From the IMG/VR virus record IMGVR_UViG_3300045003_000194, positions 1-38,812 of that record: 38,812 nucleotides of DNA, one strand, 5' to 3'. This stretch comes from a virus. Positions within the stretch are counted from its first letter, which is position 1. Every line of letters starts with the position of its first letter. The position numbers and the translations under genes are program-made. The notes below the pieces were generated by a model. The model was not told the DNA's origin, made no database searches, and saw nothing but the letters and a program-made list of their open reading frames with translations. Below are positions 6,316-19,785 of this stretch, piece by piece.

Positions 6316-6774
6316 TTATCCAAAAAACTTGAGCAACGCCCACAGCGCCAGCCCGCCCACCGCGATCATGCTCAGCAAGCTGCCCGTATCCGGCGCACCC
6401 GCCGTCTGCTCAGGCGAAGCGCTTAAAACAGAATTCACCGCCTCAAGACTCGCTGAATAAATTCCACTCGTGAAGGTCGACCACGGAGAAAAACTGCTGC
6501 CTGCTGCGGAGTACACCGCGTAGGCAGCCGCGGCATTGGTCGCAGGGTCGAAAAGATTCTGTCCCTGAAATTCGGGATGCGCCTTGAGGTAAATCTGCCA
6601 CAGACCGAATGAGCCATAGCCCTGCGGCGCACCCGCTGCCGCTTCCGGGTTGTAGGCTTGCGGATTCCCGCCCGACTCGGCCAGCGCGATCGCCACCGCT
6701 GTGGCTAGATCACTGCCCGAGAAGCCAGCCGCGGAAGCCAGCGCCAGCAGTTGCGAGATGGAAAGCGCGCTCAT
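6316..6774 (-). CDS. Membrane-anchored lytic transglycosylase-like protein
   Basis: Protein of 152 residues, ATGA-coupled to the gene at 6771. The region AIALAESGGNP (Glu about residue 33) followed by GSFGLWQIY and LFDPATNAAAAY is the SLT/lysozyme-like fold pattern of soluble lytic transglycosylases, with the catalytic Glu, the GxxQI-type strand and the NAxxAY helix. Residues about 132-150 (LLSMIAVGGLALWALLKFF) form a C-terminal membrane segment. A small transglycosylase held in a membrane is what PRD1-type virions use to drill the peptidoglycan during entry (protein P7), so I infer a virion entry enzyme. An ordinary endolysin is the alternative, but the C-terminal anchor argues against it. 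Confidence 0.87.
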   Translation of the reverse strand: MSALSISQLLALASAAGFSGSDLATAVAIALAESGGNPQAYNPEAAAGAPQGYGSFGLWQIYLKAHPEFQGQNLFDPATNAAAAYAVYSAAGSSFSPWSTFTSGIYSASLEAVNSVLSASPEQTAGAPDTGSLLSMIAVGGLALWALLKFFG

Positions 6775-7001
6775 GCAATCTCTTCAAAATCGTCCGGCTC
6801 GGGCAATTCCGATTCAGGGATAACTTCTAATTCTTCGATTGTGCGCCCCTCGCGTTCGGCCGTGCGGAAGTAATCACAGTTGCCCAGATGCTCTCGCTTA
6901 TAGGTTTCGCATTCCGCTTCCGTGATGCCCCAGAACTGATGGGACACCTTGATGGTTTCATCGCCGCCATCGACAATGTGCACCGTGAGCAGGTAGGCCA
7001 T
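6771..7001 (-). CDS. Small acidic protein of unknown function
   Basis: Protein of 76 residues from the ATG at 7001. It is beta-strand-like at the start (MAYLLTVHIVDGGDETIKVS) and strongly acidic at the end (ESELPEPDDFEEIA). The start overlaps the stop of the zinc-ribbon gene upstream, and the end overlaps the lytic transglycosylase start by ATGA, so it belongs to the lysis/entry block. I do not recognise the family. Confidence 0.75.
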   Translation of the reverse strand: MAYLLTVHIVDGGDETIKVSHQFWGITEAECETYKREHLGNCDYFRTAEREGRTIEELEVIPESELPEPDDFEEIA

Positions 7002-7144
7002 CAGTCGTGACTCCGCTTGCCCTTGCACTTTTTGCAGCAGCGATACCGCTTCTTTTGGCAGACCCCAAGCGTGGTGCCGCAATGAAAACAGGGCAGTCCA
7101 TACTTTTTTCGCAGCACTGCACCCGCCCAAAAGTGAATTCTCAT
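7001..7144 (-). CDS. Short zinc-ribbon protein
   Basis: Protein of 47 residues. The ATG at 7144 forms ATGA with the stop of the upstream gene. A longer open frame to 7312 exists but is only the shadow of that upstream gene. It has PCFHCGTTLGVC followed by CCKKCKGKR: two CxxC-type knuckles and a basic tail, so probably a zinc ribbon able to bind nucleic acid or protein. Function unknown. Confidence 0.7.
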   Translation of the reverse strand: MRIHFWAGAVLRKKYGLPCFHCGTTLGVCQKKRYRCCKKCKGKRSHD

Positions 7145-7323
7145 GCTCTCAGCCTCGCTGCCATCCGTCGCGCGCTCGCCAGCGCCCGGCGGCCCCAATT
7201 GGGCGCGCAATCCTCGCAAATCTCCGCGTCGCACACCGGGCAATAAAAGCACATCTTCTGCCGCGCGTCCCCGTCCACAAAAAAGCAGACGGTGCACACG
7301 GCTAAATGCCAATCGCTCGCCAT
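7141..7323 (-). CDS. Small cysteine-rich zinc-binding protein
   Basis: Protein of 60 residues with three CxxC-type pairs (VCTVC, FYCPVC, EICEDC) and a basic C-terminus (GRRALASARRMAARLRA). This arrangement is common in small phage proteins of unknown role. I place the start at the ATG at 7323; a GTG at 7335 is an in-frame alternative. It overlaps the next gene by ATGA. Confidence 0.7.
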   Translation of the reverse strand: MASDWHLAVCTVCFFVDGDARQKMCFYCPVCDAEICEDCAPNWGRRALASARRMAARLRA

Positions 7324-7327
7324 CTCT

Positions 7328-7588
7328 TCATGCACTCGGCTTCGCTGGGTCCGCCGCAGCCACAGGTTGCGCGAACTGCAGCTGCATCCCGTTGGCCTTC
7401 ATCCAGGCTGCCACCCGGCTGATGGTGTCTTGGTCCGCCGCATTCGAAGCCGCGATCGCATTGGCGATATTTTTCTTTTCATCCGGCCCCAGATTCAGCA
7501 AGCCTTCGAGCTTGATAATGAGTTCCACCGCCAGCGGACCCAGTTGCACGATGAGCGCGACAATTTCCGAAAGTAGTTGCGGATTCAT
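7328..7588 (-). CDS. Small helical protein of unknown function
   Basis: Protein of 86 residues, ATGA-coupled to the lipoprotein gene upstream. The first 35 residues form an amphipathic to hydrophobic helix (LLSEIVALIVQLGPLAVELI), followed by a helical region with AWMKANGMQL. It sits between the lipoprotein and the zinc-binding proteins in the lysis/entry block. It could be a membrane-associated lysis accessory, but no family is recognised. Confidence 0.75.
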   Translation of the reverse strand: MNPQLLSEIVALIVQLGPLAVELIIKLEGLLNLGPDEKKNIANAIAASNAADQDTISRVAAWMKANGMQLQFAQPVAAADPAKPSA

Positions 7589-8076
7589 GGCTGCGAATTT
7601 CCTCCTGTCCCTTGCACCGCCTCGACGGCCGCAAGCAGCGCACCCGCCAGCGCGCCCACATTCTGCACGTCCTGCTGAAAGGTCTGCTGGGAGCGCGGAT
7701 TTTTGATACCCAATGCCGCGGATGGCATCTGCGTGATGGAGCTTTTAATCAGGTCGACCAGATGCTGCACGCTCTGCACATTGGCCTGCGTCGCCTGCCC
7801 CTGTGCCAGGACGCCGGTAATCTGCGCATGCAGGATGGCCACCTGTCCGCACCAGGCGATGACCGGAGCCGCTTGCGCCGTGCTCACCAGTTTGGACGAT
7901 GCCGCCACCTCCATGCCTTGCTCTACCGCGTTGTTCGCCTCAGCCAGTGCCGCATTGTAGGTGTGCACTCGCTCCCAGGGCGTGACCGCGCCCGTCGACT
8001 TGTGAATGCAGGCCGCGACCAGCAGCAAAACCGTGATGACAGGTAGAACGGAAATGACTCGATGAGTGCGCATCAT
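7585..8076 (-). CDS. Lipoprotein, possible spanin-like
   Basis: Protein of 163 residues. The N-terminus is a lipoprotein signal: basic MMRTHR, hydrophobic VLPVITVLLL, then lipobox VAAC with Cys about residue 22. The mature part is helical and Gln/Ala-rich. The gene is ATGA-coupled to the holin-like gene before it and to a small helical gene after it. A lipoprotein next to a possible holin and a peptidoglycan lytic enzyme would fit an outer-membrane spanin component or a superinfection-exclusion factor. Neither can be proven from the sequence. Confidence 0.78.
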   Translation of the reverse strand: MMRTHRVISVLPVITVLLLVAACIHKSTGAVTPWERVHTYNAALAEANNAVEQGMEVAASSKLVSTAQAAPVIAWCGQVAILHAQITGVLAQGQATQANVQSVQHLVDLIKSSITQMPSAALGIKNPRSQQTFQQDVQNVGALAGALLAAVEAVQGTGGNSQP

Positions 8077-8351
8077 GATCGTGTCTCCGAAGGTGGAGGA
8101 TAAGTGCCGTTAACTTTCTCGAGGTGCGCTGCTACTGCCGCGGCCCAGTTGGGAGAATTCTCAATCGCTGTCGACTGCGCGCGGCGCAGGTTGCCGATGA
8201 TGGTATTGGCCACCTTGAACCAATACACGTACTTCGGCGAAGAATCTTTAGTAGGTGCGGGCAGGGAAGAGACCAGCGCCGAAATGACGTTGTTCAAAAT
8301 CCACGTCGCCACCACCGCGCTCGCATAGGGATGTGCTGCCAGCCACTTCAT
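8073..8351 (-). CDS. Small membrane protein, holin candidate
   Basis: Protein of 92 residues, ATGA-coupled at both ends. Residues about 8-30 (HPYASAVVATWILNNVISALVSSLP) are hydrophobic enough for one membrane helix. The rest is soluble (YWFKVANTIIGNLRRAQ). Size, single helix and position next to a lipoprotein and a lytic transglycosylase make a class III-like holin or lysis accessory possible. I am not certain of the family. Confidence 0.7.
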   Translation of the reverse strand: MKWLAAHPYASAVVATWILNNVISALVSSLPAPTKDSSPKYVYWFKVANTIIGNLRRAQSTAIENSPNWAAAVAAHLEKVNGTYPPPSETRS

Positions 8352-8533
8352 CGTTCCCGCCCGCCCTCTTCCACCTGATAGCCCTTTACCTTGGCCCAGT
8401 GGATGATCCGCTCGGCAAATTCCTCATCCGTGGTCGAGATCACCGCCACGTTCAGCCGGATGCCGCTGCCGCTCCCTCGCGCCTTCCATACCGACAGCAC
8501 CCGGTTGACGATGCCACTGTTCGCGGATGCCAT
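8348..8533 (-). CDS. Small protein of unknown function
   Basis: Protein of 61 residues ending in an ATGA overlap with the holin-like gene. It has an alternating strand pattern (IRLNVAVISTTDEE) followed by a helix (EFAERIIHWAKVKGYQVEE), a compact alpha/beta mini-domain. The Shine-Dalgarno is close and weak (GAAGGG two bases before ATG), so the start is less sure. The 115 bases upstream, to 8648, hold a short hairpin (GTGGT/ACCAC, 8598-8610) and no convincing gene. Confidence 0.6.
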   Translation of the reverse strand: MASANSGIVNRVLSVWKARGSGSGIRLNVAVISTTDEEFAERIIHWAKVKGYQVEEGGRER

Positions 8534-8648
8534 GACCCTTCAATCGGCAAACCTTGCACGTGCGTACCGCCCAAACACCCGAAGTCAGATGGTCTAAGTG
8601 GTAAAACCACCACGCGCCGCTGACTCTTTTTTCCCCTCTCGCCACCGC

Positions 8649-9455
8649 TCAAAACTGCGCATAACTCACCGAAATCGTAGCCGTGGCCGTGATGGCTCCC
8701 GTGGCCACGCACACCGCATGCCCCGTGGCCTGTGTGCGCGCCAGCGCGCCCAGCGTATTGCCAATGAATGGCAGAATTTGCGGCGTGGTCGAGAGCACCT
8801 GCAGCTGCCACAGGGTTTGCACCACGCTCGCGCAGCCCGCCGCCGTGCCCTCTTCTAAAACGACGGTGCCCGTCGTCGTGGCCGCGCCAAAGCTGATCGA
8901 CATTCCACAGATGTAAATATTGGCGCCAGCAAACACGCCCACCAGCGTGGTGGTGGTAGATTGCGCCGGCTGAATGATGATGGTTTTGTCGCACGCCACG
9001 GGCGAAGTCGGCCCATTGCTGCCGAGCGCCGCTGCCGCAAATTCAATGGGGGCAGCGACTGCCGTATACCAGGCGCTAATCGATCCCGCGCCGTAATTGC
9101 TGACTGCGACGCGCACGCCGTCGTAGTACCCGCCCGCCTGCAGCACATGGCATCCGGTATCGGTGACGCTATTTTGACCGTAGGACGCGGAGGCGATCGT
9201 GGTTGCATTGGAGAAGCTTCCGCCCGGGCCCGCCTGCAGGCTGATTGTGCCGCTGAATCCCGTGGTGCAGTAGGCCAGCAGATGCGTAGACTGCCCGAGG
9301 TTTTGCAGCACCGGGCTGTTCACGTTGGCGCTTTGGTTGGTAAATACGGTGACCGAGACCGTTTGATTGGCCACCGTGCCGAGAAACTGCGCCTGTGCTG
9401 CCATCGCACAAAGCAGCAAGCTTACGAGCGCCAGTTTTGTGCTTCTCACACCCAT
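8649..9455 (-). CDS. Exported beta-rich protein, possible virion decoration
   Basis: Protein of 268 residues. A signal peptide (LALVSLLLCAMAAQA) precedes QFLGTVANQTVSV. The mature part has two beta-sandwich-like halves, each with one or two Cys pairs that could form disulphides in the periplasm: about 25-140 with GSFSNATTIASASYG, and about 145-268 with VACDKTIIIQPAQSTTTT. It overlaps the capsid-like gene upstream by 10 bases, so it lies at the end of the capsid-like block. I infer a surface or spike protein. It has no enzyme motif. Confidence 0.75.
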   Translation of the reverse strand: MGVRSTKLALVSLLLCAMAAQAQFLGTVANQTVSVTVFTNQSANVNSPVLQNLGQSTHLLAYCTTGFSGTISLQAGPGGSFSNATTIASASYGQNSVTDTGCHVLQAGGYYDGVRVAVSNYGAGSISAWYTAVAAPIEFAAAALGSNGPTSPVACDKTIIIQPAQSTTTTLVGVFAGANIYICGMSISFGAATTTGTVVLEEGTAAGCASVVQTLWQLQVLSTTPQILPFIGNTLGALARTQATGHAVCVATGAITATATISVSYAQF

Positions 9456-9982
9456 AGATTGTCCGTCTCCATGTCGCGCGGATAGAGAAAGCCCACCAGT
9501 CGTCCGCCTGCTAGCTGCCCCGCCAGAGCCACCGCCACGTTTTTCACCACGATGGTGACCACTTGATTTTCGAAAATGCGGAAGCCCGCAATCTCCACCG
9601 GGTTCGAAGGGTTACCGAGCGAGGTCAGAATATTGTCGTAAGACGTCGCCCCCGGAGGTGGCGCGCCATCCACCAGAATCTGCCACACCACCGCGCCCGA
9701 ACCTTCCACCCATCCCCCGCCCACGAAATTATTGGCGATTTTTTTGATGATGCCGTGCCGGCCGAGCGGCACCTGAAATTGCACGATGTTCGCCTGCGCT
9801 GCGACCGCCGGCAGCGCTACGTAATTGGATTGGTCGAGATTCTCCCAGCGCTCCGGCGGCCACAGGTGAATCGGTAAACTCACCGGCTGAATCACCCGCG
9901 CCTGCGCTGGCTGGCTCGGAATGCCCGGCCCGCCGCCTGCCTGCCGTGCGATGCGCTGCGGAGTGATGACTTTAGAGCTCAT
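9446..9982 (-). CDS. Virion-protein candidate, beta-rich
   Basis: Protein of 178 residues with a proline-rich N-terminal arm (about 1-40) and a beta-rich core: QFQVPLGRHGIIKKIANNF, VVWQILVDG, RIFENQVVTIVVKNVAV, ending in RLVGFLYPRD. The pattern of short strands with a final GFLYP strand fits a jelly-roll or related beta-sandwich. The size is close to the small capsid protein of P23-77 (VP16, 173 residues), but this is a size argument only. It overlaps the preceding gene by 11 bases and the exported beta protein by 10. I infer a capsid or vertex protein. Confidence 0.65.
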   Translation of the reverse strand: MSSKVITPQRIARQAGGGPGIPSQPAQARVIQPVSLPIHLWPPERWENLDQSNYVALPAVAAQANIVQFQVPLGRHGIIKKIANNFVGGGWVEGSGAVVWQILVDGAPPPGATSYDNILTSLGNPSNPVEIAGFRIFENQVVTIVVKNVAVALAGQLAGGRLVGFLYPRDMETDNLWV

Positions 9983-10487
9983 TGGACAAGGTTCCTGTAA
10001 AGGGTGCGGACTGTCCGTACAGCGCGAGTTGCACCGTGTTGGCGACCGCTTCCAGGTTCTGCATCATGATCTGCATTTGCGACTTGGGCAAATCGAAACG
10101 GTAGGGCTCGCGCAAGAAAAACCAGGCCACCGGCCCCGGAGAATTTCCCCCACCCAGGTTGGGAAATTGAATGCCACGATCGTTCAATCGCCGCTGCTTC
10201 ACCAGGTCATAGAACTGTGCCCGGAATCCGCCCACGGTGTTCACACTGGCACTGCACCCGATCGCGAGCAGATGCCAGTCGCTCATCACATCCACTTTGA
10301 CGATGAGCGATTGCTGCGCCCCGATGACGCCGTTGACCACTTCCCAGCGCGGCTGATAGCCCGGCAGCCCAGGCGGCTCTTTTTCCGCCATGCGATAGAC
10401 GGAAGACTGCAGCGCCCGCAGGGGCAGCATGCGCGCCAGCGGATTCAAAAAGTCGGCGCGCAATGTCTTGATGTTGGCTTGCTGCAT
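9972..10487 (-). CDS. Virion-protein candidate
   Basis: Protein of 171 residues. The start at 10487 follows AAAGG by 5 bases; a longer frame to 10805 only shadows the next gene. It has a helical N-terminal half (TLRADFLNPLARMLPLRALQ), then strands, with FRAQFYDLVKQRRLNDRGIQ, VAWFFLREPYRFD and a final amphipathic stretch QIMMQNLEAVANTVQLALYG. It lies between two beta-rich proteins of similar size in the presumed capsid operon. Function inferred from place only. Confidence 0.6.
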   Translation of the reverse strand: MQQANIKTLRADFLNPLARMLPLRALQSSVYRMAEKEPPGLPGYQPRWEVVNGVIGAQQSLIVKVDVMSDWHLLAIGCSASVNTVGGFRAQFYDLVKQRRLNDRGIQFPNLGGGNSPGPVAWFFLREPYRFDLPKSQMQIMMQNLEAVANTVQLALYGQSAPFTGTLSNEL

Positions 10488-10498
10488 TGCGCCCTTTC

Positions 10499-10933
10499 TT
10501 AGTGCTTTGGTTTCGCCCAGAGCTTGAAGCCCGAGAAAACCACTTCCACCGTATTCGGCGCGCCCGATGTATCCGAAAACAGCAGCGTGTACGTGCGCGT
10601 CGCCGGCATAACAAAGGGAACACCCAGAGGCCACGCAGCTGCGGCTGCCGCAGTCCCCGCCCATAAGTCGATGTTGATGCCGTTGAAAGCGCCCGCCCCC
10701 GAAACTGCTGAAGCCGTCGTGCCGATAAAATCGCGCCCCGTGGCTGCTTCTTTCATGAGCACCTTGAGCAGGTTCGAGGTGCGCGAGGCTTTCAGCCACC
10801 ACCATTCGAAGTCGGCATCCGCCTGAATCTGGAATTGGTTCGGGTCTTGCACGGCGCTCGCCGGCACCACCCGATCGAGCACGTATTCGAAATACTGCCG
10901 CTCAAACTGATCGTCAACTTGAGTCGGGTCCAT
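10499..10933 (-). CDS. Virion-protein candidate, beta-sandwich
   Basis: Protein of 144 residues from the ATG at 10933, with AAAGTGAG 7 bases upstream; a GTG at 10945 is an alternative. Features include QIQADADFEWWWLKASRTS, a Gly/Ala loop, then PFVMPATRTYTLLFSDTSG and NTVEVVFSGFKLW. A final strand pair of the kind N-T-V-x-V-x-F-x-G-x-K suggests a beta-sandwich or jelly-roll structural protein. It is the first gene after the hairpin that follows the best major capsid candidate, which suggests lower expression than that gene. Confidence 0.62.
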   Translation of the reverse strand: MDPTQVDDQFERQYFEYVLDRVVPASAVQDPNQFQIQADADFEWWWLKASRTSNLLKVLMKEAATGRDFIGTTASAVSGAGAFNGINIDLWAGTAAAAAAWPLGVPFVMPATRTYTLLFSDTSGAPNTVEVVFSGFKLWAKPKH

Positions 10934-10965
10934 ATGTGGACTCACTTTCCGCGAAAGAATGTGTG

Positions 10966-10989
10966 GAGCCGGAAATCTCGCCCCGGCTC
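10966..10989 (-). terminator. Intercistronic hairpin after capsid candidate
   Basis: Perfect 7-bp inverted repeat GAGCCGG/CCGGCTC with a 10-base loop in the 96-base gap after the stop of the gene at 11030. No clean T run follows on the minus strand (TTCTTT only), so it is more likely an attenuator or mRNA-stabilising stem than a full terminator. Confidence 0.45.
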
Positions 10990-11029
10990 TCCTGAAGCTT
11001 GCGCAACGGGCGAGCGCGTTGGTTGTGCT

Positions 11030-11800
11030 TTACAGAATCGCGCGCATCAGTACACCTTCGAGGTACACATGGACGTTCAGTCCAGTGCCCACGAACTGCG
11101 TAGCCGGTGCCACCGCCAGCGTGGTGAATGCGGCCGATCCGGTAAGCGTCGGATCGAGCGTGACAAAAAAGTTTTGCTGCTGCTCGATCAGTTGCCCGAG
11201 AATCGGATCCATCGGCGGAAGCCCCGGAACTTGCGGAGCATCGTCCACGATGGTGTACGCATTGAGCGCATGCGGATATCCGTTTGCGCCCGCATTCGCC
11301 ATGGTGCCGCCCGCTGCCAGCGTCTGCGTGTCGGGATAGGTGCCAAAAGGCCCGCCCCCGGCCGGCAGCTTCGAAACCAGCGTGGTCGAATAATCCTTCC
11401 CGCTGATTTGCAGCTGCGCCAGCGTCTGCCCGATGAACGAAACCAGATCCTGTGGTGCCGCGTCCCCCCGCACAATGACGGAGATGACTTTGACCAGCAT
11501 CTTCTTGGGTGCATCGAGCATTCCCGGCTGCACCAGGTTGGTGTGGTACAAAGTCTTGATGAACGCCGCGCCGCCCGAAGGGGTATAACTGGCCCCGATG
11601 GGCTGAGCGAACAGGCTCTGCTTCGTCACCGCCGTCGCTACCGCGATCCCGTAGAAATCAAAAATGGGCTGCACCAAATACTCGAGTTGCCCGGCAATGA
11701 TGGGATTCTTGCGCAGCATCTCGAGCCGCGGCCGGCCCACTTCCCTCTCCGTGATTTCGCGGCAATGCGCGAAGCGTGATTGAAATCTTTTGTTGACCAT
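11030..11800 (-). CDS. Best candidate for major capsid protein
   Basis: Protein of 256 residues. The ATG at 11800 follows GGGAGG by 10 bases. The N-terminus is basic with a helix (FAHCREITEREVGRPRLEML), then ITERE..PIIAGQLEYLVQPI. The second half is beta-rich and ends with PATQFVGTGLNVHVYLEGVL, like the last strands of a viral jelly-roll. Supporting points are the size (P23-77 VP17 has 291 residues), a strong Shine-Dalgarno, a following intercistronic hairpin, and a place in the centre of the structural arm. I see no HK97-fold features and no scaffold or protease next to it. It could also be a minor virion protein; structure prediction would decide. Confidence 0.55.
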   Translation of the reverse strand: MVNKRFQSRFAHCREITEREVGRPRLEMLRKNPIIAGQLEYLVQPIFDFYGIAVATAVTKQSLFAQPIGASYTPSGGAAFIKTLYHTNLVQPGMLDAPKKMLVKVISVIVRGDAAPQDLVSFIGQTLAQLQISGKDYSTTLVSKLPAGGGPFGTYPDTQTLAAGGTMANAGANGYPHALNAYTIVDDAPQVPGLPPMDPILGQLIEQQQNFFVTLDPTLTGSAAFTTLAVAPATQFVGTGLNVHVYLEGVLMRAIL

Positions 11801-11889
11801 TTTTCTTTCGCCTCCCTTCAGGTCAGAATCCTTTCCTTCGCGAGCACCCTGCGAACCGCACCGCACGAGTGCCCGCTACCGCTTTGGAA

Positions 11890-12420
11890 CTAGAATCGCG
11901 TTTGGAAACGCGAGCGATAGCGCGAAACGCCCAGCCCGTGGACGCCTTTCACAGGCGCCGGCGGAAGCATGGGAATGACGCGCCCGTAAGCATCCGAGGC
12001 CGTGGGAACCGGGAACGCCGAATTTACGTAGAGTCCCAGCCCAGGCACCGCGACGCCCGCCTGCTTGACCGTCTTGATCAGCGCCGCCAGGATTCCGCCC
12101 TTGAGCACTTCTTCGCCCGCGGGTGCGCCGGCCACTGCTTTGCCCACGAAAGAGGCCGCAATCGCAGCCGCGACTGTCGCCGCGACATCCAGCCATCCCG
12201 ACTGCCCCAGGAAGCTGGCGCCAAAATTCGCGCCCGCCATGCCCGCTGCATTCCAGGCCACATCTTTCACCACGGAGCCACTGACCCCGAAGGGGTTGTG
12301 GCGCCGGCGATGATGCCGATGATGATGTCTCGCCATTGTGCTTTCACCTCCTTCTGAGCCGCGCCCCGCGAAATAGCTCCGCGGCGTGTAGCTCGGATTG
12401 AAAACCCGGATTTTCGCCAC
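11890..12420 (-). CDS. Arg/His-rich hydrophobic protein, membrane- and DNA-binding virion candidate
   Basis: Protein of 176 residues from a GTG at 12420 with GGAGG 6 bases upstream. A second in-frame ATG at 12336 has a near-perfect AGAAGGAGGTGA 8 bases upstream, so a shorter form of 148 residues starting MARHHHRHHRRRHNPF is likely made as well. The His/Arg cluster is strongly basic. It is followed by small-residue hydrophobic stretches (DVAATVAAAIAASFVGKAV and GGILAALIKTVKQAGVAVP) that look like glycine/alanine-zipper membrane segments. A basic head plus a membrane-embedding body suits a protein that links packaged DNA to an internal membrane, as proposed for P23-77 VP11. That role is inference. 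Confidence 0.75.
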   Translation of the reverse strand: MAKIRVFNPSYTPRSYFAGRGSEGGESTMARHHHRHHRRRHNPFGVSGSVVKDVAWNAAGMAGANFGASFLGQSGWLDVAATVAAAIAASFVGKAVAGAPAGEEVLKGGILAALIKTVKQAGVAVPGLGLYVNSAFPVPTASDAYGRVIPMLPPAPVKGVHGLGVSRYRSRFQTRF

Positions 12421-12441
12421 AGCGATCCTCCGAAAACTTTT

Positions 12442-13155
12442 TTAGCCACCCAGCTGGAATCGTCCGCCGACGAAATACCCTTCCATCTGCTCTGGGTTCG
12501 AATCGTCCAGCAGCAAACTCAGATGCGTGCCCTCCGCATGGTTCACGCTGCCGCGAATGCGCCCGAATCCGCCTTGCGCCCCGCCCAGCATCACGTTCAT
12601 TTGCGCAATCGGGTGAATCACCCCGAACACATGCCCGTCGCGCGCCGTGATTTTGTCGCGCACCCGATCACCCACAATGGGGCAGCCCACCAAACTCTGC
12701 GCGATGCGTGGAGGCACGCAGCCTTTGCAGCCCGTCTTTACCGACTTGGGACAGGCGTGCTTCGCGTGCGCCGGAACCCAGCGCGGGTCAGGGATTGCCG
12801 GCAGTGGCGGAAGTCCGAAGGGCAGAAGCAAATCTTGCTGGTCGCGTGAAATCGCGAGAATTGGAGAAGCGTTGTAGCCCAGCCAGTCGAGCGTGATGGA
12901 CGCCCAGAGCAGCGCCTGTTTTTCGCTGAAGGGATGCAGGCCGGGTTGGTTGCGCAGCTCCGTCGCCTGTCGCGCATTCTGCCAACGTGTGCGCGACTGC
13001 GAGAGGCCCGCCGTGGACCGCTGCGCCTCAAACACCAGATTGGTCAATCGCCCGATGACGATGTAGTTTTTCTGCCGGATGGTCTCCTGCTGGATCTTGA
13101 TCCGGTCCGCCAGCTTGAACGTCGAAGGAACGATGACCGCTGCCGCTGTGCTCAT
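12442..13155 (-). CDS. Virion-protein candidate, family not recognised
   Basis: Protein of 237 residues, directly upstream of the Arg/His-rich protein gene. A short Ala/Val N-terminus leads to DRIKIQQETIRQKNYIVIGR and a helical region with RTRWQNARQATELR. A Cys-rich segment (HACPKSVKTGCKGCVPP) in the middle could bind a metal. The C-terminal part is Gly-rich with strands (MNVMLGGAQGGFGRIRG). It could be a second capsid-shell protein or an internal protein. No catalytic motif is seen. Confidence 0.6.
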   Translation of the reverse strand: MSTAAAVIVPSTFKLADRIKIQQETIRQKNYIVIGRLTNLVFEAQRSTAGLSQSRTRWQNARQATELRNQPGLHPFSEKQALLWASITLDWLGYNASPILAISRDQQDLLLPFGLPPLPAIPDPRWVPAHAKHACPKSVKTGCKGCVPPRIAQSLVGCPIVGDRVRDKITARDGHVFGVIHPIAQMNVMLGGAQGGFGRIRGSVNHAEGTHLSLLLDDSNPEQMEGYFVGGRFQLGG

Positions 13156-13234
13156 TACGTGTTGGCCCTCTCTTGGAGCCTCTGTGCTGTGTCCGGTTGT
13201 GCGTGCTGACCGCAGTGCCGGACGTTGAAAACTT

Positions 13235-13573
13235 TCACATTACATCGAAAACAATCTCATCTCGATATCGCTGCATCAATTCGTCATAAGGCTGGGACCA
13301 ATCGAGGTCACGCGCTATCACTTGCCCCGGTAGCTTCAGATTTGCGCTCATGCACTGCTCGCAGCGCACGCGGAAATCATTCGGGCAATTGCTGATTCCG
13401 TCACGCTTCCAGGTTCCACCGCGCGTGCCGTGATCAGGATGAAGCGCAGGCTTTCCGCACACTGCGCAGAGATGGCCCAACTGACAAAGCGAGCCGAGCG
13501 GAACGCTCACAACCTCACCAATGAAGGCTGAGCCATCGGTACTCACGCACGTTATTTCATCGCCCTCTTTCAA
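13235..13573 (-). CDS. HNH-like zinc-binding protein
   Basis: Protein of 112 residues. It starts at a TTG that overlaps the stop of the preceding gene (TTGA) and has GGGG 8 bases upstream. The N-terminal 30 residues look like a small beta barrel (DEITCVSTDGSAFIGEVVSV). Then come LCAVCGKPALHPDHG and VRCEQCMSANLK: a CxxC pair, an HxxH and a second CxxC in the order of an HNH/recombination-endonuclease VII-like zinc fold. The Asn position is unclear, so nuclease activity is uncertain. Unusual among the structural genes. Confidence 0.7.
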   Translation of the reverse strand: MKEGDEITCVSTDGSAFIGEVVSVPLGSLCQLGHLCAVCGKPALHPDHGTRGGTWKRDGISNCPNDFRVRCEQCMSANLKLPGQVIARDLDWSQPYDELMQRYRDEIVFDVM

Positions 13574-14748
13574 TTGATGATCCCCGCTTCTTCAATCCGA
13601 TAATCCCCGCCTTCCAGCAGCAACCGTTTCACTCGCACATCAAAGAGCACGGTCGGCCGCTCCCCGTTCTCTTCCCCAAAGTCGTGCCGCCAGGAATCCG
13701 CCTCTGGATGCGGCACATGTTCTTTGCGCTGCCGGTAGTCAATTCTTCGAGCCTCGCCGAGTTCCCAGAGTCCCTCTCCACGATCTCGTGCTCCGAAGAG
13801 CGCGAGGCCCAAACTTACATCCTGATCGCCGCCCACGAAATACATCTGCCGCGCCGATTCATCCCCAACTAAGATGGTTCCACCCGAGGCTTGAATCTGC
13901 ATTATCTGCCCACCCTTCACCGGCTTCACGTAGAGAGCAAGTAGCGTGCCAAGCTTCGCGTAGTCGCCCGCGCGCATGTGCGGTTCACTCATCACCGCGA
14001 TGCGATCAACCGCCTTGCCCGTGAATGTTTCCCGCAGCGCTTCCGCCGAGGGATTCCCGCGCTTACCCCAGTTGTGCCGCGATGCCGGTCGCAGCGTCGC
14101 GCCCTGTGGCAGATGCGGCCCGCGATGCCCCGGCTTGCGCGTGCACTGATATCCGCCGATCCTCGCCCCGCAGATCTCCGCAGGGTTGATAGGTAAGCCG
14201 TCCGCATCGTATTTCTGCTCACCGTACAATTCATGGAACACGCGCGCCTGTCGTGAATGCTTACCTGCAGCCCGCGCGGATTTCCGCAGCCCGCCCAGGT
14301 ATTCGCGCTCCTCTTGCCGCTTGCGCCGCACCCCCGCGCGGAAGCTGCGCCGCGACTCTGCCAATTCTTTCTTTGTGGGCTTCGATGGAGAGAAGCCGAG
14401 AAAGCTACCCAGCGAGTTAGTGCGTGCTTCCGGGTTGGTGCGAATGGTCACCTCGCCGCCCGGAATGGGAATCTTGATTTCCTGTTCTTTCGATGGCGAC
14501 GGATTCGCGCCCAGCACAATCAGGTCGCTCGGGTTGTGTGCTGGCTTCACCACTTTCTTTTTGCGCCGCTTAATCGGATTGGTGCGCGGACTCATGACGA
14601 TGTAGCGGTATCCGTGCCGCGTGGGCGTGCCCCGGATGAATGCGCCTTTGGTCTTGCGCTCTTTCGCCACCGCATCTTTCTTTTCCGCGAAGGCCCCATG
14701 GAACATGTAGCCGTAGCCCTCGCCCGCGTTTTTGCGCTTGCGGCTCAT
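13570..14748 (-). CDS. Basic protein with repeated Asn-Pro motifs and conserved C-terminal domain
   Basis: Protein of 392 residues starting at the ATG at 14748. The N-terminal 170 residues are very basic and carry repeated NP motifs (RTNPIKRRKKK, AHNPSDL, GANPSPS, RTNPEARTN). A small Cys/His cluster follows (ICGARIGGYQCTRKPGH), then RGNPSAEALRETFTGKAVDR, and a C-terminal domain of about 150 residues with alternating strands (GGTILVGDESARQMYFVGG and a final GGDYRIEEAGIIN). I know similar NPSAEAL...FTG proteins only as uncharacterised phage genes. It is the first gene of its operon section and may bind DNA. Function unknown. Confidence 0.75.
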   Translation of the reverse strand: MSRKRKNAGEGYGYMFHGAFAEKKDAVAKERKTKGAFIRGTPTRHGYRYIVMSPRTNPIKRRKKKVVKPAHNPSDLIVLGANPSPSKEQEIKIPIPGGEVTIRTNPEARTNSLGSFLGFSPSKPTKKELAESRRSFRAGVRRKRQEEREYLGGLRKSARAAGKHSRQARVFHELYGEQKYDADGLPINPAEICGARIGGYQCTRKPGHRGPHLPQGATLRPASRHNWGKRGNPSAEALRETFTGKAVDRIAVMSEPHMRAGDYAKLGTLLALYVKPVKGGQIMQIQASGGTILVGDESARQMYFVGGDQDVSLGLALFGARDRGEGLWELGEARRIDYRQRKEHVPHPEADSWRHDFGEENGERPTVLFDVRVKRLLLEGGDYRIEEAGIIN

Positions 14749-14752
14749 TGGC

Positions 14753-14780
14753 TTGACACCTCGCCAGCCATGGATAAGAT
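14753..14780 (+). promoter_or_regulatory. Candidate sigma-70-type promoter
   Basis: TTGACA (14753-14758), a 16-base spacer and TAAGAT (14775-14780) on the plus strand, just before the only plus-strand genes of the structural arm. It would give a leader of about 70 bases to the GTG at 14857. Confidence 0.5.
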
Positions 14781-14856
14781 TTCAGGGGCAAAAAAGAAAC
14801 GCACCGCACTGGAATTCCCGCCCGGGATCAGAACGATGCGCCTCAGGAGCTGACTT

Positions 14857-15147
14857 GTGAGTGAGAATATACCACGCAAACCGATCGACCAGATTCGAGA
14901 AGCTCTCAGACGCGAAGCCGCAGCCGAAGCCCGACTCCAAAAATTAGAAGTACAAGTTAAGGCTTTGAAGGTTGCTCTCTGTGTGCAAGCGTGTCGCACG
15001 CCAGACGACGTACAACCGTATCTGGATCGGTTGGCGGAATTCGAAGCGCACGCAGCCCGGCAAAGTACAGCGGAAGCGCCCGAAGCCATGAGCGAATTTC
15101 TGCGATCTCTGCTGGCGAAAGCGGATCGTCGGGAATCGGACGCGTAG
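14857..15147 (+). CDS. Coiled-coil protein of the plus-strand island
   Basis: Protein of 96 residues from a GTG with AGGAG 7 bases upstream. Charged heptad-like helix (IREALRREAAAEARLQKLEV) then a second helix (VQPYLDRLAEFEAHAARQ). It points against the surrounding minus-strand operon and has its own candidate promoter, so it is expressed separately, like a moron. A minus-strand frame at 14957-15223 overlaps it but lacks a comparable ribosome site. Function unknown. Confidence 0.65.
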   Translation: MSENIPRKPIDQIREALRREAAAEARLQKLEVQVKALKVALCVQACRTPDDVQPYLDRLAEFEAHAARQSTAEAPEAMSEFLRSLLAKADRRESDA

Positions 15148-15284
15148 TCCGCTTTTTCGGGGAGCGCTTCATTGCCCCCATCATAACCCCGTTCGCCCTG
15201 CTTTCGTCGCCCGATGGTGCCATTCCCCGCCACTAGCGCCGGGCAGTAGAGTGTTGACCCTTCCCTCAGAAAGCGAATCCCACC

Positions 15285-15602
15285 ATGGAATACAGTGAGC
15301 AGATTCTGCTTCAGGCTGCGCAAAAACTGTGGAACGAGGCAACTGGAATCATTGCTGCAACCGCTACACTTTTCACCTTGGTTGCCTTTTTTGCGGGACT
15401 CATCGGTACATCTGCACTGTTCTTGCTCAGCAAAACCGATATTAATGGTGGCGTTCTGTTTTGCGCCATTGTGTGTGCCGCTGTTGGTCTCGCCATCGGC
15501 ATCTGGGAAGGGAAGCGACGCGCTTTTGAGTTGCGCGTTAAGGCGCAGCAAATCTTCGTGCTCGTACAGATCGAGCACAACACGCGGAATGTGCGCACCT
15601 GA
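15285..15602 (+). CDS. Small two-helix membrane protein
   Basis: Protein of 105 residues with two membrane helices (about 22-47, IIAATATLFTLVAFFAGLIG, and about 55-73, GVLFCAIVCAAVGLAIGIW) and a basic cytoplasmic tail containing EGKRRAFELRVKAQQ. It lies on the plus strand, convergent with the anchored-protein block whose last stop is two bases away. The 137 bases before it contain no clear gene. Possible roles are superinfection exclusion or a host-interaction moron. Unproven. Confidence 0.7.
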   Translation: MEYSEQILLQAAQKLWNEATGIIAATATLFTLVAFFAGLIGTSALFLLSKTDINGGVLFCAIVCAAVGLAIGIWEGKRRAFELRVKAQQIFVLVQIEHNTRNVRT

Positions 15603-15604
15603 TT

Positions 15605-16102
15605 TCATAGTACCTTTGCCAGTACCAATGCACCGCCACCGAGCAGGGCAAGCCAAAACCACATCGGCAAACCGAGCGGACTATTCGGCGAACCGGGCGT
15701 GTAAACCACATTCCCCGCGCCGTAATAGCTGGCAACATTGGCAGCAGCTGGACCTGCCTGCGCTGCCTGCTGATCCGCTGCCGCTTGTGCGGCATCTATA
15801 ACCGATTGCGGATAGCCCGCTGCTTTTGCATTCTCCACCACGCTCTGCGGCCCCGATGCAATCACGCTAGCTGCGCATGCCTGCCACTTCTGCGGATTGA
15901 AATAAAAATCCCACGTCGAGCAAACATCAGCAACGTCTGGTGCGATAGGCGACGGCAAACTCAGAGCCGTCTGCACGCTGGGCTGAGATGAAAGCCAGTT
16001 CGTCAGAAATCCGCCAGTTGGATCCGTGGCGAATTGCCCAAGTCTCTGCCTGCGCATCCCCGTGGGGATGTTATCGACCGACATGTAGCCAGCACCACTC
16101 AT
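15605..16102 (-). CDS. C-terminally membrane-anchored protein
   Basis: Protein of 165 residues, ATGA-coupled to the small membrane gene upstream. The N-terminal domain has two Cys (VADVCSTWDFYF, WQACAASV), followed by an Ala/Gln-rich helix (VIDAAQAAADQQAAQAG), and a C-terminal membrane segment (PMWFWLALLGGGALVLAKVL). It is the last of a run of proteins of the same design (soluble domain, Pro/Gly/Ser linker, C-terminal helix). I infer a protein of an internal virion membrane. Confidence 0.75.
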   Translation of the reverse strand: MSGAGYMSVDNIPTGMRRQRLGQFATDPTGGFLTNWLSSQPSVQTALSLPSPIAPDVADVCSTWDFYFNPQKWQACAASVIASGPQSVVENAKAAGYPQSVIDAAQAAADQQAAQAGPAAANVASYYGAGNVVYTPGSPNSPLGLPMWFWLALLGGGALVLAKVL

Positions 16103-16245
16103 GCAAAACTCACTGTATTCGGACGCACTCCAGACATCATCTGCACTAGCGGATTGTGCTCATCCCATGGCTGCTGAAATTCGTACGCAGTAAACGCATA
16201 CGCTCCAACTCCAAGCAAGAGCAAAATTAACAGTGTGTCACTCAT
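16099..16245 (-). CDS. Single-pass small membrane protein
   Basis: Protein of 48 residues. ATGA overlaps on both sides fix its limits, and a longer frame to 16836 is only the shadow of other genes. It starts MSDTLLILLLLGVGAYAFTA, one membrane helix at the very N-terminus, followed by a polar tail. The only anchored protein of this block with an N-terminal helix. Size and form suit a small integral virion-membrane protein. Confidence 0.72.
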   Translation of the reverse strand: MSDTLLILLLLGVGAYAFTAYEFQQPWDEHNPLVQMMSGVRPNTVSFA

Positions 16246-16580
16246 CGCCGTTTCGAAATCAAAAGCAAAAGTGCAGCCGCACCTAGCCACGGCAACGCTG
16301 CCGAAAACAAACTCAGGGAACCGGTCTGAATCGCTGGAAATGAACCCGCGCTCTGCCCCGGCGTTCCCGCTGGCACGGCGTTCCCGTCCGCATCCATCCA
16401 CACCACTGCGTTCGGGTCGTTGCACAGCACCGGATTCCCTTCGGAATCGGCTGCCGAGACACAGCCCCGGAACACATTCTGCGCACCCAGCCCGCGCAGC
16501 CCAAGCCCCGCCATTGCCTTCTCTGGGTTTGTGAAAGGCCGAAACCCTTGCTGTGGCCGCATGTAGTGCACGTTCGGCAT
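16242..16580 (-). CDS. C-terminally membrane-anchored protein
   Basis: Protein of 112 residues. The N-terminus is basic and aromatic with a TNPEKAM motif. The middle has Cys residues and VVWMDADGNAVPAG. The C-terminal helix (LFSAALPWLGAAALLLLISK) ends in KRR, so the tail is probably cytoplasmic or DNA-facing. Closely similar in design to its neighbours; the FSAALPWL start of the helix recurs in the transglutaminase-like protein at 18889-19785, suggesting shared ancestry of the anchors. Confidence 0.75.
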   Translation of the reverse strand: MPNVHYMRPQQGFRPFTNPEKAMAGLGLRGLGAQNVFRGCVSAADSEGNPVLCNDPNAVVWMDADGNAVPAGTPGQSAGSFPAIQTGSLSLFSAALPWLGAAALLLLISKRR

Positions 16581-16784
16581 CTACTCTTCCTTCCGGTACC
16601 GCTTCAAAATTCCTATCAGCGTGGTGCGCCCGATGGCCAGCCGCTTCGCCGCCTCGCTCACATTCCCTTGGCACAGAATCATCGCGCTCTCGATCGCCTT
16701 GCGCTCCACCACGTGCAACGGAGTCACCAGCAAGGGCGCGATGCGTTCCACTAGTTCCATCGGCGGACGTTGCAGTAAACTCAT
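16581..16784 (-). CDS. Fis-type helix-turn-helix DNA-binding protein
   Basis: Protein of 67 residues, start fixed by an ATGA overlap with the gene upstream at 16781. Residues about 22-65 match the Fis/NtrC C-terminal HTH (HTH_8): ERKAIESAMILCQGNVSEAA, then KRLAIGRTTLIGILKRY, with the conserved GN..eAA..L.I.r.TL pattern. It has no receiver or AAA+ domain, so it is a stand-alone DNA binder. Its place in the middle of the membrane-protein block suggests either a late-transcription regulator that feeds back on this operon or a DNA-condensing virion protein. The first is more likely. Confidence 0.85.
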   Translation of the reverse strand: MSLLQRPPMELVERIAPLLVTPLHVVERKAIESAMILCQGNVSEAAKRLAIGRTTLIGILKRYRKEE

Positions 16785-17296
16785 CGCCGCTTCCCTCCGC
16801 TCGCCAAGAGCGCGACCAGAAGCACGCCCCCGCCAATCACCAGCCAGGTCGGCATGCCCATCGTGGTGCCCGACAGCCACAAACCCATGGACGATGGCGA
16901 GAGGGGAACCGCCACGCGCGGCGAAGGCGAAGGTGCCGTTCCCGCACCCACCGCGGCTGAAATCACATTCGCCAGCGGCTGGAAATTTGGCACGCTCACC
17001 TTGGAGCCGGACTGTGCCGCTTCATTGCTTTGCAGCCACGCGATGTCGGAAGGCGTCGCCTGTGCTGTCGTGTCCGCTCCGCTCGGCAAGGGCGGCCCGA
17101 TGAATCCGCCACCCGAAGGCGGTAGCACATCGGTCGGAGTCCACGCGGGCTGCTGCCAGAATGGCAGGCTGCCCGCGTCCGGCGTCGTGGCAAACGGGTC
17201 ATAGCCCGAACTGAAGACATCGGTCATGCCGTCATCGCCCAGCCCATGCAGGCGCGGGCGGATGTACGGCCCGGAATAGACGGCCACGCGGCTCAT
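16781..17296 (-). CDS. C-terminally membrane-anchored protein
   Basis: Protein of 171 residues with an ATGA overlap to the gene upstream. It has an aromatic/Gly N-terminus (VYSGPYIRPRLHGLGDDG), a long Pro/Ser/Gly linker, and a C-terminal membrane helix (TWLVIGGGVLLVALLASG) ending GKRR. Same plan as the neighbours at 16242, 17475, 18368 and 18889. I infer a virion-membrane protein with its linker facing the capsid shell. Confidence 0.75.
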   Translation of the reverse strand: MSRVAVYSGPYIRPRLHGLGDDGMTDVFSSGYDPFATTPDAGSLPFWQQPAWTPTDVLPPSGGGFIGPPLPSGADTTAQATPSDIAWLQSNEAAQSGSKVSVPNFQPLANVISAAVGAGTAPSPSPRVAVPLSPSSMGLWLSGTTMGMPTWLVIGGGVLLVALLASGGKRR

Positions 17297-17478
17297 TGCG
17301 CCCTCAATGGTTCAAAGAGTTTCCGCGCGGCAGCTTCTGCCCCCGGATAGTGCACCGAAATTTGCACGATGGCATACATGCGCTTCAGATCGTTAATCAT
17401 CCACCACTGGCATCCGCCTTCAACCGGAGCGCACAGGCTGTAACGCCCCGACTTCGAATTCTCGCCTCTGCGCTTCAT
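17293..17478 (-). CDS. Small soluble protein in the membrane-protein block
   Basis: Protein of 61 residues. ATGA overlaps at both ends fix the limits. Basic start MKRRGENSKSGRYSLC, then WWMINDLKRMYAIVQISVHY and AARKLFEPLRAQ. No membrane segment. It could be an assembly factor for the anchored proteins. Not recognised. Confidence 0.65.
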   Translation of the reverse strand: MKRRGENSKSGRYSLCAPVEGGCQWWMINDLKRMYAIVQISVHYPGAEAAARKLFEPLRAQ

Positions 17479-18371
17479 CGCAAAAACATCCAGGCCGCGA
17501 TCGCAGCCGCACCCAGCAAAAGCAAACTCGAAGAGCTTCCCCCGCCACCTAGCAGGGAACTGACCGTCCCCGAAACCGACGCAATCTTCGGCGGTGTGTA
17601 TGTGAGCGAATACCCCGAACGCAGGTTCGCTCCGTACTTCGATCCGTAGACCGTGCACACCTGAATCGTTCCCCCTTGGGGATTCGCAAAGACTTGCTGC
17701 GCCTGCAGCACGGTCGGATACAAATCTTGGCAGCCCACGCAGCACGTGGCCGTGCAACTTTTGTCGCACATGTGCCCGCCCGGAGTGCCGGTACAGGGCC
17801 CGCCCGGATTCAATTGCCCATTGCCGCAATTCGCGCCGCCATTCGAAGCATCCGCCGCGCCTGGCGCGCGCGTGTAGGGAGCCATCTCCGCGAAAAACTG
17901 CTGCAATAAAAGCTGGCACTGCTGTGCCGCTTGCGTCCCCGTGATGTTCTGGCTGGGATCCGAAGAATTCGCCGCCGCGAAAATCGCCTTGATGCCCGCA
18001 TCGAACGCTTGCACCGCCGAATTGATGGCCTGATTCTCTTGCGTGGCCCCTTTGACCCGCGCTTCGTGCGCCGACCACAATCCGCCGATGATGCCCACTA
18101 GAATTGCAATGCCCGCGCCGATGCCCGCCGTGAGCGCGCCCGCCGCCATTCCTGTGGCTCCGGTTGCGGAAACCGCTGCTGAAGCTGCGAACGGTGTGCC
18201 CACTTGTGCGCCGGCAGAAACCAGAGGCGTGATGTTGGTCGCGCCCAGCCATCCCAGTTGATGCAGCGGAATTTTCGGCGCGCGCGCGTAGTGGCCGAAG
18301 CGCGGCGCATGCGTCATTCCGCGCCAGCCTTGCTGGTAGAGCGGCACCGAGGGTAGAGCCACGCTGCTCAT
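17475..18371 (-). CDS. Cys-rich protein with two membrane segments
   Basis: Protein of 298 residues; the ATG at 18371 overlaps the preceding stop (ATGA), and the longer frame to 18773 is a shadow. The N-terminus has YQQGWRGM and LHQLGWLG repeats. A Gly/Ala-rich membrane stretch follows (about 60-90, GALTAGIGAGIAILVGIIGG), then a helical domain, a Cys-rich segment (GHMCDKSCTATCCVGCQDLY), and a C-terminal helix (SSLLLLGAAAIAAWMFLR). The Cys cluster could form disulphides in the periplasm or bind metal. I infer a virion-membrane or membrane-tube protein, the largest of the block together with its neighbour at 18889-19785. Confidence 0.75.
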   Translation of the reverse strand: MSSVALPSVPLYQQGWRGMTHAPRFGHYARAPKIPLHQLGWLGATNITPLVSAGAQVGTPFAASAAVSATGATGMAAGALTAGIGAGIAILVGIIGGLWSAHEARVKGATQENQAINSAVQAFDAGIKAIFAAANSSDPSQNITGTQAAQQCQLLLQQFFAEMAPYTRAPGAADASNGGANCGNGQLNPGGPCTGTPGGHMCDKSCTATCCVGCQDLYPTVLQAQQVFANPQGGTIQVCTVYGSKYGANLRSGYSLTYTPPKIASVSGTVSSLLGGGGSSSSLLLLGAAAIAAWMFLR

Positions 18372-18892
18372 CGCTTCCCCTTGAACATCCACAGCAGCGC
18401 GAACGCCGCCGCCCCCGCGATGCCCCAGTTGGGAATTCCTGCAATCAGCGTCTGCTCGGAAAGCCACGCGCCGAATCCGCTGGCCACGTTGACGCTGTTG
18501 CCCGCTGAATCGAGCACCGTCCCCGGTTGTGTCAGCTGGGGCGCCGTCTGATCCGCGCCTACGGCCACGCTCGGGGAGGGCTGCGGCGCGCCAGGCGTGC
18601 CGCCCGGAGCCGACACAACCGAGCCTGAAGATGGGCCGAGCGGAGGCGGCTGGGGGACCGTCGCTGTCGCGCCCGGATAGTTGCGCCAAATCGGAACGGG
18701 CATCACCGGAATCGGCTCCACAATGGGGAAAGGCCAGCGCACCGGAGGAGCGCCACAGCCCCACGCCGGACATGGCATCATGCCCTCGCCCGTGATGGTC
18801 GCTGCCCCGAGCCGCACCATGTGCGCTTTTCCATCAGTCAGCGTGCGCGGCGCAATTTCCCACGGCGCGCGATACACATATCGGCCGCTCAT
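18368..18892 (-). CDS. C-terminally membrane-anchored Pro-rich protein
   Basis: Protein of 174 residues, ATGA-coupled to both neighbours. N-terminal MSGRYVYRAPWEIAPRTL, a Pro-rich stretch (FPIVEPIPVMPVPIWRNYPG), a Ser/Gly/Pro linker, and a C-terminal helix (NWGIAGAAAFALLWMF) ending KGKR. The Pro-rich arm could extend through a capsid shell. Part of the anchored-protein block. Confidence 0.75.
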   Translation of the reverse strand: MSGRYVYRAPWEIAPRTLTDGKAHMVRLGAATITGEGMMPCPAWGCGAPPVRWPFPIVEPIPVMPVPIWRNYPGATATVPQPPPLGPSSGSVVSAPGGTPGAPQPSPSVAVGADQTAPQLTQPGTVLDSAGNSVNVASGFGAWLSEQTLIAGIPNWGIAGAAAFALLWMFKGKR

Positions 18893-19785
18893 CGCTTCAC
18901 CGCCACTAAAACCAATCCGCCAATCAGCAGCCAGGGCAATGCCGACGAAAACAGGGAACTGGAAATGGCATTCAATCCCCCATAGCCCGCCGCTGGCACC
19001 GCGTACCCGGGAGTGTAGGGAGTCATGAACGAGGCATAAGGGCTGCCGGTGGAAACTGTGGCCCCCGATGGCAGCCGCATCGCTGTGGGTTGCCCTGAAA
19101 CCGTGGCGATAATTCCCGGAATCTCTTGAATGCTTTGCGAGAGGATCGCATTCGCATCGATGCCTGAACCGTCATCGCCGAGCGAGCCCATGCTCAGATA
19201 CCCGGAGAGCCCCTGCAGCCGCGTGCACCCATTCATGTCCTGATAGGTGCCATCGGTGAGCGACCACACCCGCTTGCGGAAATAAACCGGAGGCTGTAAA
19301 CCGAATTGCGAATTTGGCCGCGCCGCATCGACCGCCACCCAGCGCCCCGAGCCTGCCGGCACTTCCACTTCCGTGTACACGTGCGAGAAATCGTTGGGAT
19401 AGTCGGGCTGCGCTGCCACCGTCACCAGACGCGCCGGATAACCCAGCGCGATCGCCAGCGCACCCATGAGCATGGCGATGTCGTCGCAGTCCCCCGCCCG
19501 CTTTTTCAGTAGCTCCAAGGGAGGCGTGAGCAATTCCTTGGTAACCGGGTCTTTGGTGTACCGGATATGCCCCTGCACCCACTGAAACAGGGAAAAAACT
19601 TCCCCGTAATCGTCATAAGCGGGAATATGCCGTACCAATTCGACCGAAAACCGGATGAATTGGGGATCATTCAGGGCTTGATCGATCAGCTTGCGCATCA
19701 GCCGCACGGTTTGTGCTGTGCCCGCATCGCCGTCGAGAAGGGGTGCGCGATAGCCGAGTAAGTTACCCGCGTGCTGAAGCCGCAA
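18889..19785 (-). CDS. Transglutaminase-like protein with C-terminal membrane anchor
   Basis: Protein of 298 residues starting at a TTG with AGAGAGG 8 bases upstream. Residues about 25-160 form a transglutaminase-like cysteine-protease fold with the full triad in order: Cys100 in KKRAGDCDDIAML, His135 in DFSHVYTEVEV and Asp153 in WVAVDAA. A linker follows, then a C-terminal helix from about 276 (FSSALPWLLIGGLVLVAVKR). The enzyme could cleave or cross-link peptide bonds in virion proteins or in the host wall peptide. It is the first gene of the minus arm, next to the divergent regulatory gap. A membrane-tethered enzyme of this type is unusual in a phage. Confidence 0.85.
   Translation of the reverse strand: MRLQHAGNLLGYRAPLLDGDAGTAQTVRLMRKLIDQALNDPQFIRFSVELVRHIPAYDDYGEVFSLFQWVQGHIRYTKDPVTKELLTPPLELLKKRAGDCDDIAMLMGALAIALGYPARLVTVAAQPDYPNDFSHVYTEVEVPAGSGRWVAVDAARPNSQFGLQPPVYFRKRVWSLTDGTYQDMNGCTRLQGLSGYLSMGSLGDDGSGIDANAILSQSIQEIPGIIATVSGQPTAMRLPSGATVSTGSPYASFMTPYTPGYAVPAAGYGGLNAISSSLFSSALPWLLIGGLVLVAVKR

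Follow-up and report, generated by a model that had tools for sequence, protein, structure and literature searches.

A candidate tailless, membrane-containing phage lineage of Acidobacteriota distantly related to Salisaeta icosahedral phage 1

The IMG/VR virus record IMGVR_UViG_3300045003_000194 (38,812 bp; the window, by which we mean this whole stretch of DNA) is best read as the complete genome, a circular double-stranded DNA (dsDNA), of a temperate phage that infects Acidobacteriota (Terriglobia) and is very probably tailless, membrane-containing and distantly related to Salisaeta icosahedral phage 1 (SSIP-1). We give this reading a probability of roughly 0.8. The lineage is new, probably at family level or higher. 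A fuller formulation is more tentative and stands, in our view, a little short of even odds: a new group, at family or order level, of dsDNA phages that infect soil Acidobacteriota, are tailless and membrane-containing, build their capsids from single jelly-roll proteins, carry a transglutaminase-fold virion enzyme, share ancestry with SSIP-1 and live as dif proviruses lacking an integrase of their own. To our knowledge, few tailless membrane-containing dsDNA phages have been described, and SSIP-1, a single isolate, has hardly any known kin.

The first 127 bases of the record are the same as its last 127, a direct terminal overlap, and overlaps of 97-127 bp are found in nine relatives (G002, G003, G004, G010, G012, G014, G016, G017 and G018). 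When many contigs overlap by exactly 127, an assembler k-mer acting on a circular molecule is the expected cause, and the genome (positions 1-38812) is therefore circular and closed, with about 38,685 bp of unique sequence. The open reading frames (ORFs) listed in an earlier, sequence-only reading of the window were confirmed at the same positions, and the genes are organised as two arms diverging from a point near 19.8 kb. The gene inventory of that reading was sound as far as it went, but it had missed the transglutaminase, the closure of the genome, a spike gene spanning the contig ends and the conservation of the whole arrangement across a family.

That family comprises at least 25 related contigs with core genes in common. 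Searches with the capsid candidate g14 (11030-11800) found 7 relatives, then 15 and finally 23 contigs as the profile was widened, and more members were recovered with a profile of the transglutaminase, g23; closed members measure 32-39 kb. The core consists of the genes at 9446-9982, 9972-10487, 10499-10933, 11030-11800, 11890-12336, 12442-13155, 13570-14748, 18889-19698 and 20047-21462, together with the ATPase gene at 36239-37330 (15 of 16 relatives). From the transglutaminase to the capsid candidates, gene order is identical in all ten members mapped, while the lysin and spike genes shift somewhat; since the same order recurs in ten relatives, the pattern of the structural arm is far beyond chance. 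One g14, that of contig 3300032160_001545 (L020:8254-9069), contains an in-frame stop close to its N-terminus. Direct tblastn searches of 50,697 phage records with g14, the ATPase g46 and the transglutaminase gave no match, and no close relative had been recognised on first reading.

Kinship with SSIP-1 is most evident in g23 (18889-19698, minus strand), a transglutaminase-fold protein (Transglut_core, E 2e-14). Its profile finds gp34, an annotated structural protein of SSIP-1, with an hmmsearch E of 5e-21, and hhalign aligns the two over 193 columns with P 1e-16, far above 86 other proteins. The catalytic triad of Cys, His and Asp does not vary across the family transglutaminases and gp34, and both end in a C-terminal membrane helix. 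Transglutaminase folds are common, so that homology to gp34 does not by itself prove shared descent of the whole virion; the case for common ancestry is made stronger by the shared C-terminal anchor and by the setting among membrane-anchored structural genes. A second, marginal link joins g13 to SSIP-1 gp47, its best match and the first of 87 proteins (hmmsearch E 0.001, hhalign P 0.0016); for the other SSIP-1 structural proteins no homologue was detected. Position had led us to suspect that g15 corresponds to gp44, g24 to gp33 and g14 to gp45/46, but hhalign supported none of these pairings.

The structural arm is also rich in membrane-anchored proteins. At least six proteins with a soluble domain and a C-terminal helix had been claimed, and six, all on the minus strand, fit this plan: the lytic transglycosylase at 6316-6774; g19 (15605-16102), whose sequence is not conserved; g20 (16781-17296), with an N-proximal GLG motif; g21 (17475-18371); g22 (18368-18892); and g23 itself. 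A simple hydropathy test was positive for 8 of 22 genes in the left arm and 0 of 24 in the right (Fisher p 0.001), although for 7585-8076 and 8649-9455, which are among these eight, an anchor is not clear. The transglycosylase, likewise foreseen as membrane-anchored, matches Pfam SLT_3 (E 1e-22) and SLT (E 2e-7), has a Kyte-Doolittle (KD) value of 2.17 at its C-terminus and is a candidate virion lysin. SSIP-1 has the same plan of anchored proteins, and its gp54 reads, from its sequence, as a lytic transglycosylase with a C-terminal helix.

A short GLG/GMG motif is present in 11 of 13 family transglutaminase proteins (2.0 expected), mostly C-terminal of the domain as in SSIP-1 gp34; in all five g20 proteins, where it is N-proximal (0.5 expected); and in 13 of 15 g15 proteins (3.6 expected). 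It was also noted in SSIP-1 gp36, gp52 and gp53, and is missing from the window's own g23. The motif might be a processing site, and a g23-type enzyme may process membrane-anchored virion proteins there.

The capsid candidates lie together on the minus strand. Core protein g11 (9446-9982), beta-rich and kept in all members checked, is a capsid or vertex candidate, and the conserved, beta-rich g12 (9972-10487) has a remote likeness to g13 (hhalign P 5e-4). The earlier expectation of beta-rich, capsid-size proteins was borne out by structure prediction for g13 (10499-10933), our candidate for a small major capsid protein (MCP): its AlphaFold2 model (pLDDT 82.6, pTM 0.75) is a jelly-roll-like sandwich, so that by the model its fold class is all-beta sandwich, not HK97. 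Foldseek matches to the PDB, all below significance, included nucleoplasmin, the satellite panicum mosaic virus capsid and birnavirus VP2, with single jelly-roll capsids among them. When g13 was searched against a viral library, the BFVD entry I1ZBI0 (256 aa, the length of SSIP-1 gp47; the entry's identity was not verified) ranked 19th at 18% identity. The large MCP candidate is g14 (minus strand), among the best-conserved structural proteins, sharing 61-90% identity within the main clade and 39-42% with members of further clades; Foldseek matches of its model, of pLDDT 43, were discarded as evidence. Searching PDB sequences with profiles of four capsid candidates gave nothing useful.

Next to these, g15 (11890-12336) is the Arg/His-rich hydrophobic protein of the first reading; with a His/Arg-rich N-terminus and hydrophobic segments, and kept in nearly all members, it is a candidate major membrane protein. 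Its C-terminus (RYRSRFQTRF) resembles the N-terminus of g14 (NKRFQSRF), and comparable motifs occur in relatives. The conserved core protein g16 (12442-13155) and the basic core protein g18 (13570-14748), conserved at its C-terminus, follow, also on the minus strand. On the other side lies a beta-rich protein with a signal-peptide-like start (8649-9455, minus strand), found by tblastn in about half of the relatives and by profile in both clades.

A tailless virus with a membrane could equally be built on a double jelly-roll, as in PM2, FLiP or the tectiviruses, and g14 would then be the double jelly-roll MCP; only the capsid fold differs from our preferred reading. At 256 aa g14 is indeed near the length of PM2 P2 (269 aa), and dif-using tailless prophages are known among vibriophages (PMC9966536). 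Yet profile comparison found no similarity between the window's candidates and PM2 or FLiP proteins, the window genome is several times larger, and g13, a separate conserved small protein, models alone as one sandwich, so that a two-MCP plan fits at least equally well. We regard the double jelly-roll as unlikely, while keeping it in view.

No match to TerL (terminase large subunit) or portal turned up in the family records searched. All main structural proteins of the window, along with the capsid candidates of distant members, were scanned against Pfam and PHROGs, and no terminase, portal, protease, tail or HK97 family rose above noise; the only clear matches were SLT lysozyme (6316-6774) and Transglut_core (18889-19698). 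Genome-wide runs with three PHROGs families found the TerL family phrog_2 in 0 of 25 family records, and the portal family phrog_21 and TerL family phrog_38 each in 0 of 23. In the same runs phrog_21 matched the tailed G028 and phrog_38 the tailed G032; phrog_2 matched four other records carrying the g46 ATPase. PHROGs holds many TerL and portal families, of which these are three, and the per-protein scans therefore bear part of the weight. The sequence-only reading had seen no tail, portal, protease or terminase gene in the structural arm and had proposed a search for TerL, portal and HK97 folds; the scans, of window and relatives alike, turned up none of these.

We therefore think it very unlikely that the window is a tailed phage (Caudoviricetes) with head, portal and terminase genes diverged past recognition. 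Besides the empty searches of some 25 family records, with positive controls, no conserved structural gene of portal or tape-measure size is present apart from the variable spikes; the core proteins either are small and rich in beta structure or terminate in a membrane helix; the transglutaminase has a homologue among the virion proteins of a tailless phage; and the g13 model is all-beta, not HK97. What can be set on the other side are two weak 'tape measure' PHROG matches (E 0.006-0.01) to a low-complexity part of 17475-18371, the match of a HerA gene to a PHROG labelled terminase large subunit, and the occurrence of g46 relatives in tailed phages.

The last two points concern the ATPases. 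The first reading had placed HerA-type ATPases on the other arm, and one is present, g38 (27930-29684, plus strand; HerA_C E 0.026, phrog_2666 E 4e-11), but it is accessory, occurring in 3 of the 16 first relatives and in the provirus G356 described below. It matches the P23-77 ATPase at E 1e-4, the hhalign set for g38 covering 54 of the 87 comparison proteins. We rejected the 'terminase' label of phrog_2666 as evidence of TerL, the protein being HerA-like and accessory. The best-conserved ATPase is g46 (36239-37330, plus strand), a P-loop protein with conserved Walker A and PEAW motifs and a weak match to HerA/DUF87 (E 0.031). Its relatives occur in 43 contigs, and in L097-L118 the g46-type family is seen to be common to this lineage and to tailed phages. 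We considered g46 as a tailless hallmark and rejected it, since its distant kin turn up in tailed phages that carry TerL along with portal and head genes; for the same reason it is only a candidate packaging motor. With g46 kin beside TerL in tailed phages and the HerA gene accessory, HerA-type ATPases are poor evidence here.

Scarcely credible is a non-viral integrative element or capsidless plasmid with surface and adhesion proteins, which would suit the signal-peptide-like starts of the spike-like proteins and the host-like right-arm genes (SNF2-methylase, radical SAM, TadE-like) but not the conserved structural arm with its membrane-anchored lysin, the homology to an SSIP-1 virion protein, the free circular contigs classed as virus, or the single compact divergent two-arm plan across many genomes.

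The host assignment comes from proviruses. A first genome scan with g14 gave no match, and a broader profile found one complete relative in a Terriglobia metagenome-assembled genome, with a 169-bp overlap, in itself weak evidence of the host. Screening 399 Terriglobia genomes revealed two proviruses inside longer contigs, G195 (contig 150 kb, provirus about 27 kb) and G356 (497 kb and about 36 kb), and a third, weaker match, G066. The G195 provirus is bounded by an 18-bp repeat, and at its left end the other strand reads ACGTCTGATAA-CGTATA-TTATGTAAAAT, a dif site. A dif pattern derived from this site occurs in 25 of 61 Terriglobia genomes, just once in 24 of them, and its reversed control in none. 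In G195 and G356 the sole match is the provirus end, and the opposite end repeats the XerC arm and centre. In both of these Terriglobia (Acidobacteriota) genomes the distant provirus thus occupies the host dif site. A scan of the larger provirus ORFs yielded no recognisable integrase. Use of dif by non-tailed vibriophages is known (PMC9966536).

In the window, a candidate attP lies at 22280-22296 (plus strand), where an XerC-arm-like GCGTCCGATAA followed by CAGGTA matches the dif sites bounding the proviruses. With seven other free genomes that carry the half-site, eight members have a site ending GTCCGATAA past the first right-arm genes (g24/g25). Mismatched half-sites are frequent by chance (2.6 expected per genome), and it is therefore their shared position, not the match alone, that counts as evidence. 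With this candidate half-site, the window's own virus may use XerCD as well.

Taken together, the gene content suggests a virion in which small beta-rich proteins, with g13 and g14 as candidates for two MCPs, would form an outer shell over an internal membrane, and g11 and g12 might serve as additional capsid proteins or at the vertices or spike bases. The Arg/His-rich g15 would sit in the membrane, together with about six proteins anchored by their C-termini. Of the latter, the transglycosylase may open peptidoglycan on entry and the transglutaminase-fold enzyme may cross-link or process virion proteins. Host binding would fall to the spikes (1-1188 and 3889-6288), whose N-terminal module is constant. 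The circular DNA would probably be packaged by a HerA/FtsK-type ATPase, g46 or, where present, g38, and lysogeny would proceed through host XerCD at dif.

Several observations weigh against this picture. The AlphaFold model of g14, from 15 sequences, has a pLDDT of 43, which leaves a jelly-roll MCP a proposal; no PDB structure matches the g13 fold significantly, and the top matches are a mixture of viral and cellular beta-sandwiches. The similarity of g13 to gp47 is marginal, at P 0.0016 in a set of about 1,200 comparisons. Kinship of the proviruses to the window is distant (g14 E 2e-59 and 8e-20), the window's half-site overlaps an ORF start, and several contigs with a g46-type ATPase are tailed phages with TerL or head genes of their own.

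Among the remaining genes, two on the minus strand encode spike- or fibre-like proteins with a common N-terminal module. The first, at 1-1188, runs across the contig ends (remainder 38305-38685; joined frame 522 aa), its module kept in relatives and the rest variable; the second (3889-6288) begins like a signal peptide and is conserved over 15-23% of its length. The proteins at 1-1188, 1604-3949, 3889-6288 and 8649-9455 start with Sec signal-peptide-like sequences that end near A-Q, which is unusual in a phage virion protein. The 781-aa product of 1604-3949, found in 0 of 16 relatives searched, has chitobiase/Fn3-associated and InlB-type repeats and is perhaps an adhesin or glycan-binding cargo. 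The right arm opens with g24 (20047-21462, plus strand), a core protein alpha-rich by sequence, divergent from the transglutaminase and kept in all near-complete members. Further along are a TadE-like pilin-type protein (23298-23789; Pfam E 0.0027, below cutoff) and an 881-aa protein (32734-35379) in which a SNF2-type helicase is fused to an N6/N4 DNA methylase. This fusion is 75% identical in one relative, for the most part missing from the others, and possibly defence or anti-restriction cargo.

If correctly read, the lineage places distant relatives of SSIP-1 in a different phylum, and extends such viruses to Acidobacteriota, whose isolates in PMC11924767 are all tailed. Terriglobia genomes with dif proviruses mean that cultivable lysogens can be sought as a source of virions, and the idea of one lineage linking SSIP-1 to the two-MCP jelly-roll viruses becomes testable.

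Comparison with known viruses sharpens these relationships. The Tunturi viruses (PMC11924767) share Acidobacteriota hosts, but all five isolates are tailed, with genomes of 63-309 kb. Vibriophage NO16 (proposed Asemoviridae), compared by description only, is likewise temperate and tailless and integrates at dif, apparently via host XerCD (PMC9966536), but is described as a Tectiliviricetes relative with Vibrio hosts, and its genome is far smaller (below 16 kb class, PMC11630473). With P23-77 and HCIV-1 (Matshushitaviridae, Sphaerolipoviridae), which have pairs of vertical single jelly-roll MCPs, the window shares membrane proteins, a putative HerA/FtsK-type ATPase and a possible pair of small and large MCP genes. 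Here the first reading is less well supported: no sequence link to P23-77 capsid proteins was found, g11-g16 have no sequence match to P23-77 proteins, profile comparison with the MCPs of Halopanivirales (P23-77, SH1, HCIV-1) gave no match to VP16/VP17 beyond noise, the window genome is about twice as large and its jelly-roll MCPs are candidates. SSIP-1 is described as membrane-containing, about 100 nm across, T=49, with two MCP types (PMC6260650; PMC6356626). It differs in having its own integrase gene, another ATPase (gp40), a hypersaline host, and strands and gene order unlike those of the window, with no detectable sequence homology beyond gp34 and gp47. Even so, the Salisaeta-like side of the first reading is upheld by the gp34 homology, the jelly-roll-like model of g13 and the shared plan of membrane-anchored proteins: both genomes are circular dsDNA of about 40 kb without a TerL match, and both encode a transglutaminase structural protein and a lysin-like protein (gp54 in SSIP-1), each with a C-terminal helix, among several other membrane-anchored structural proteins.

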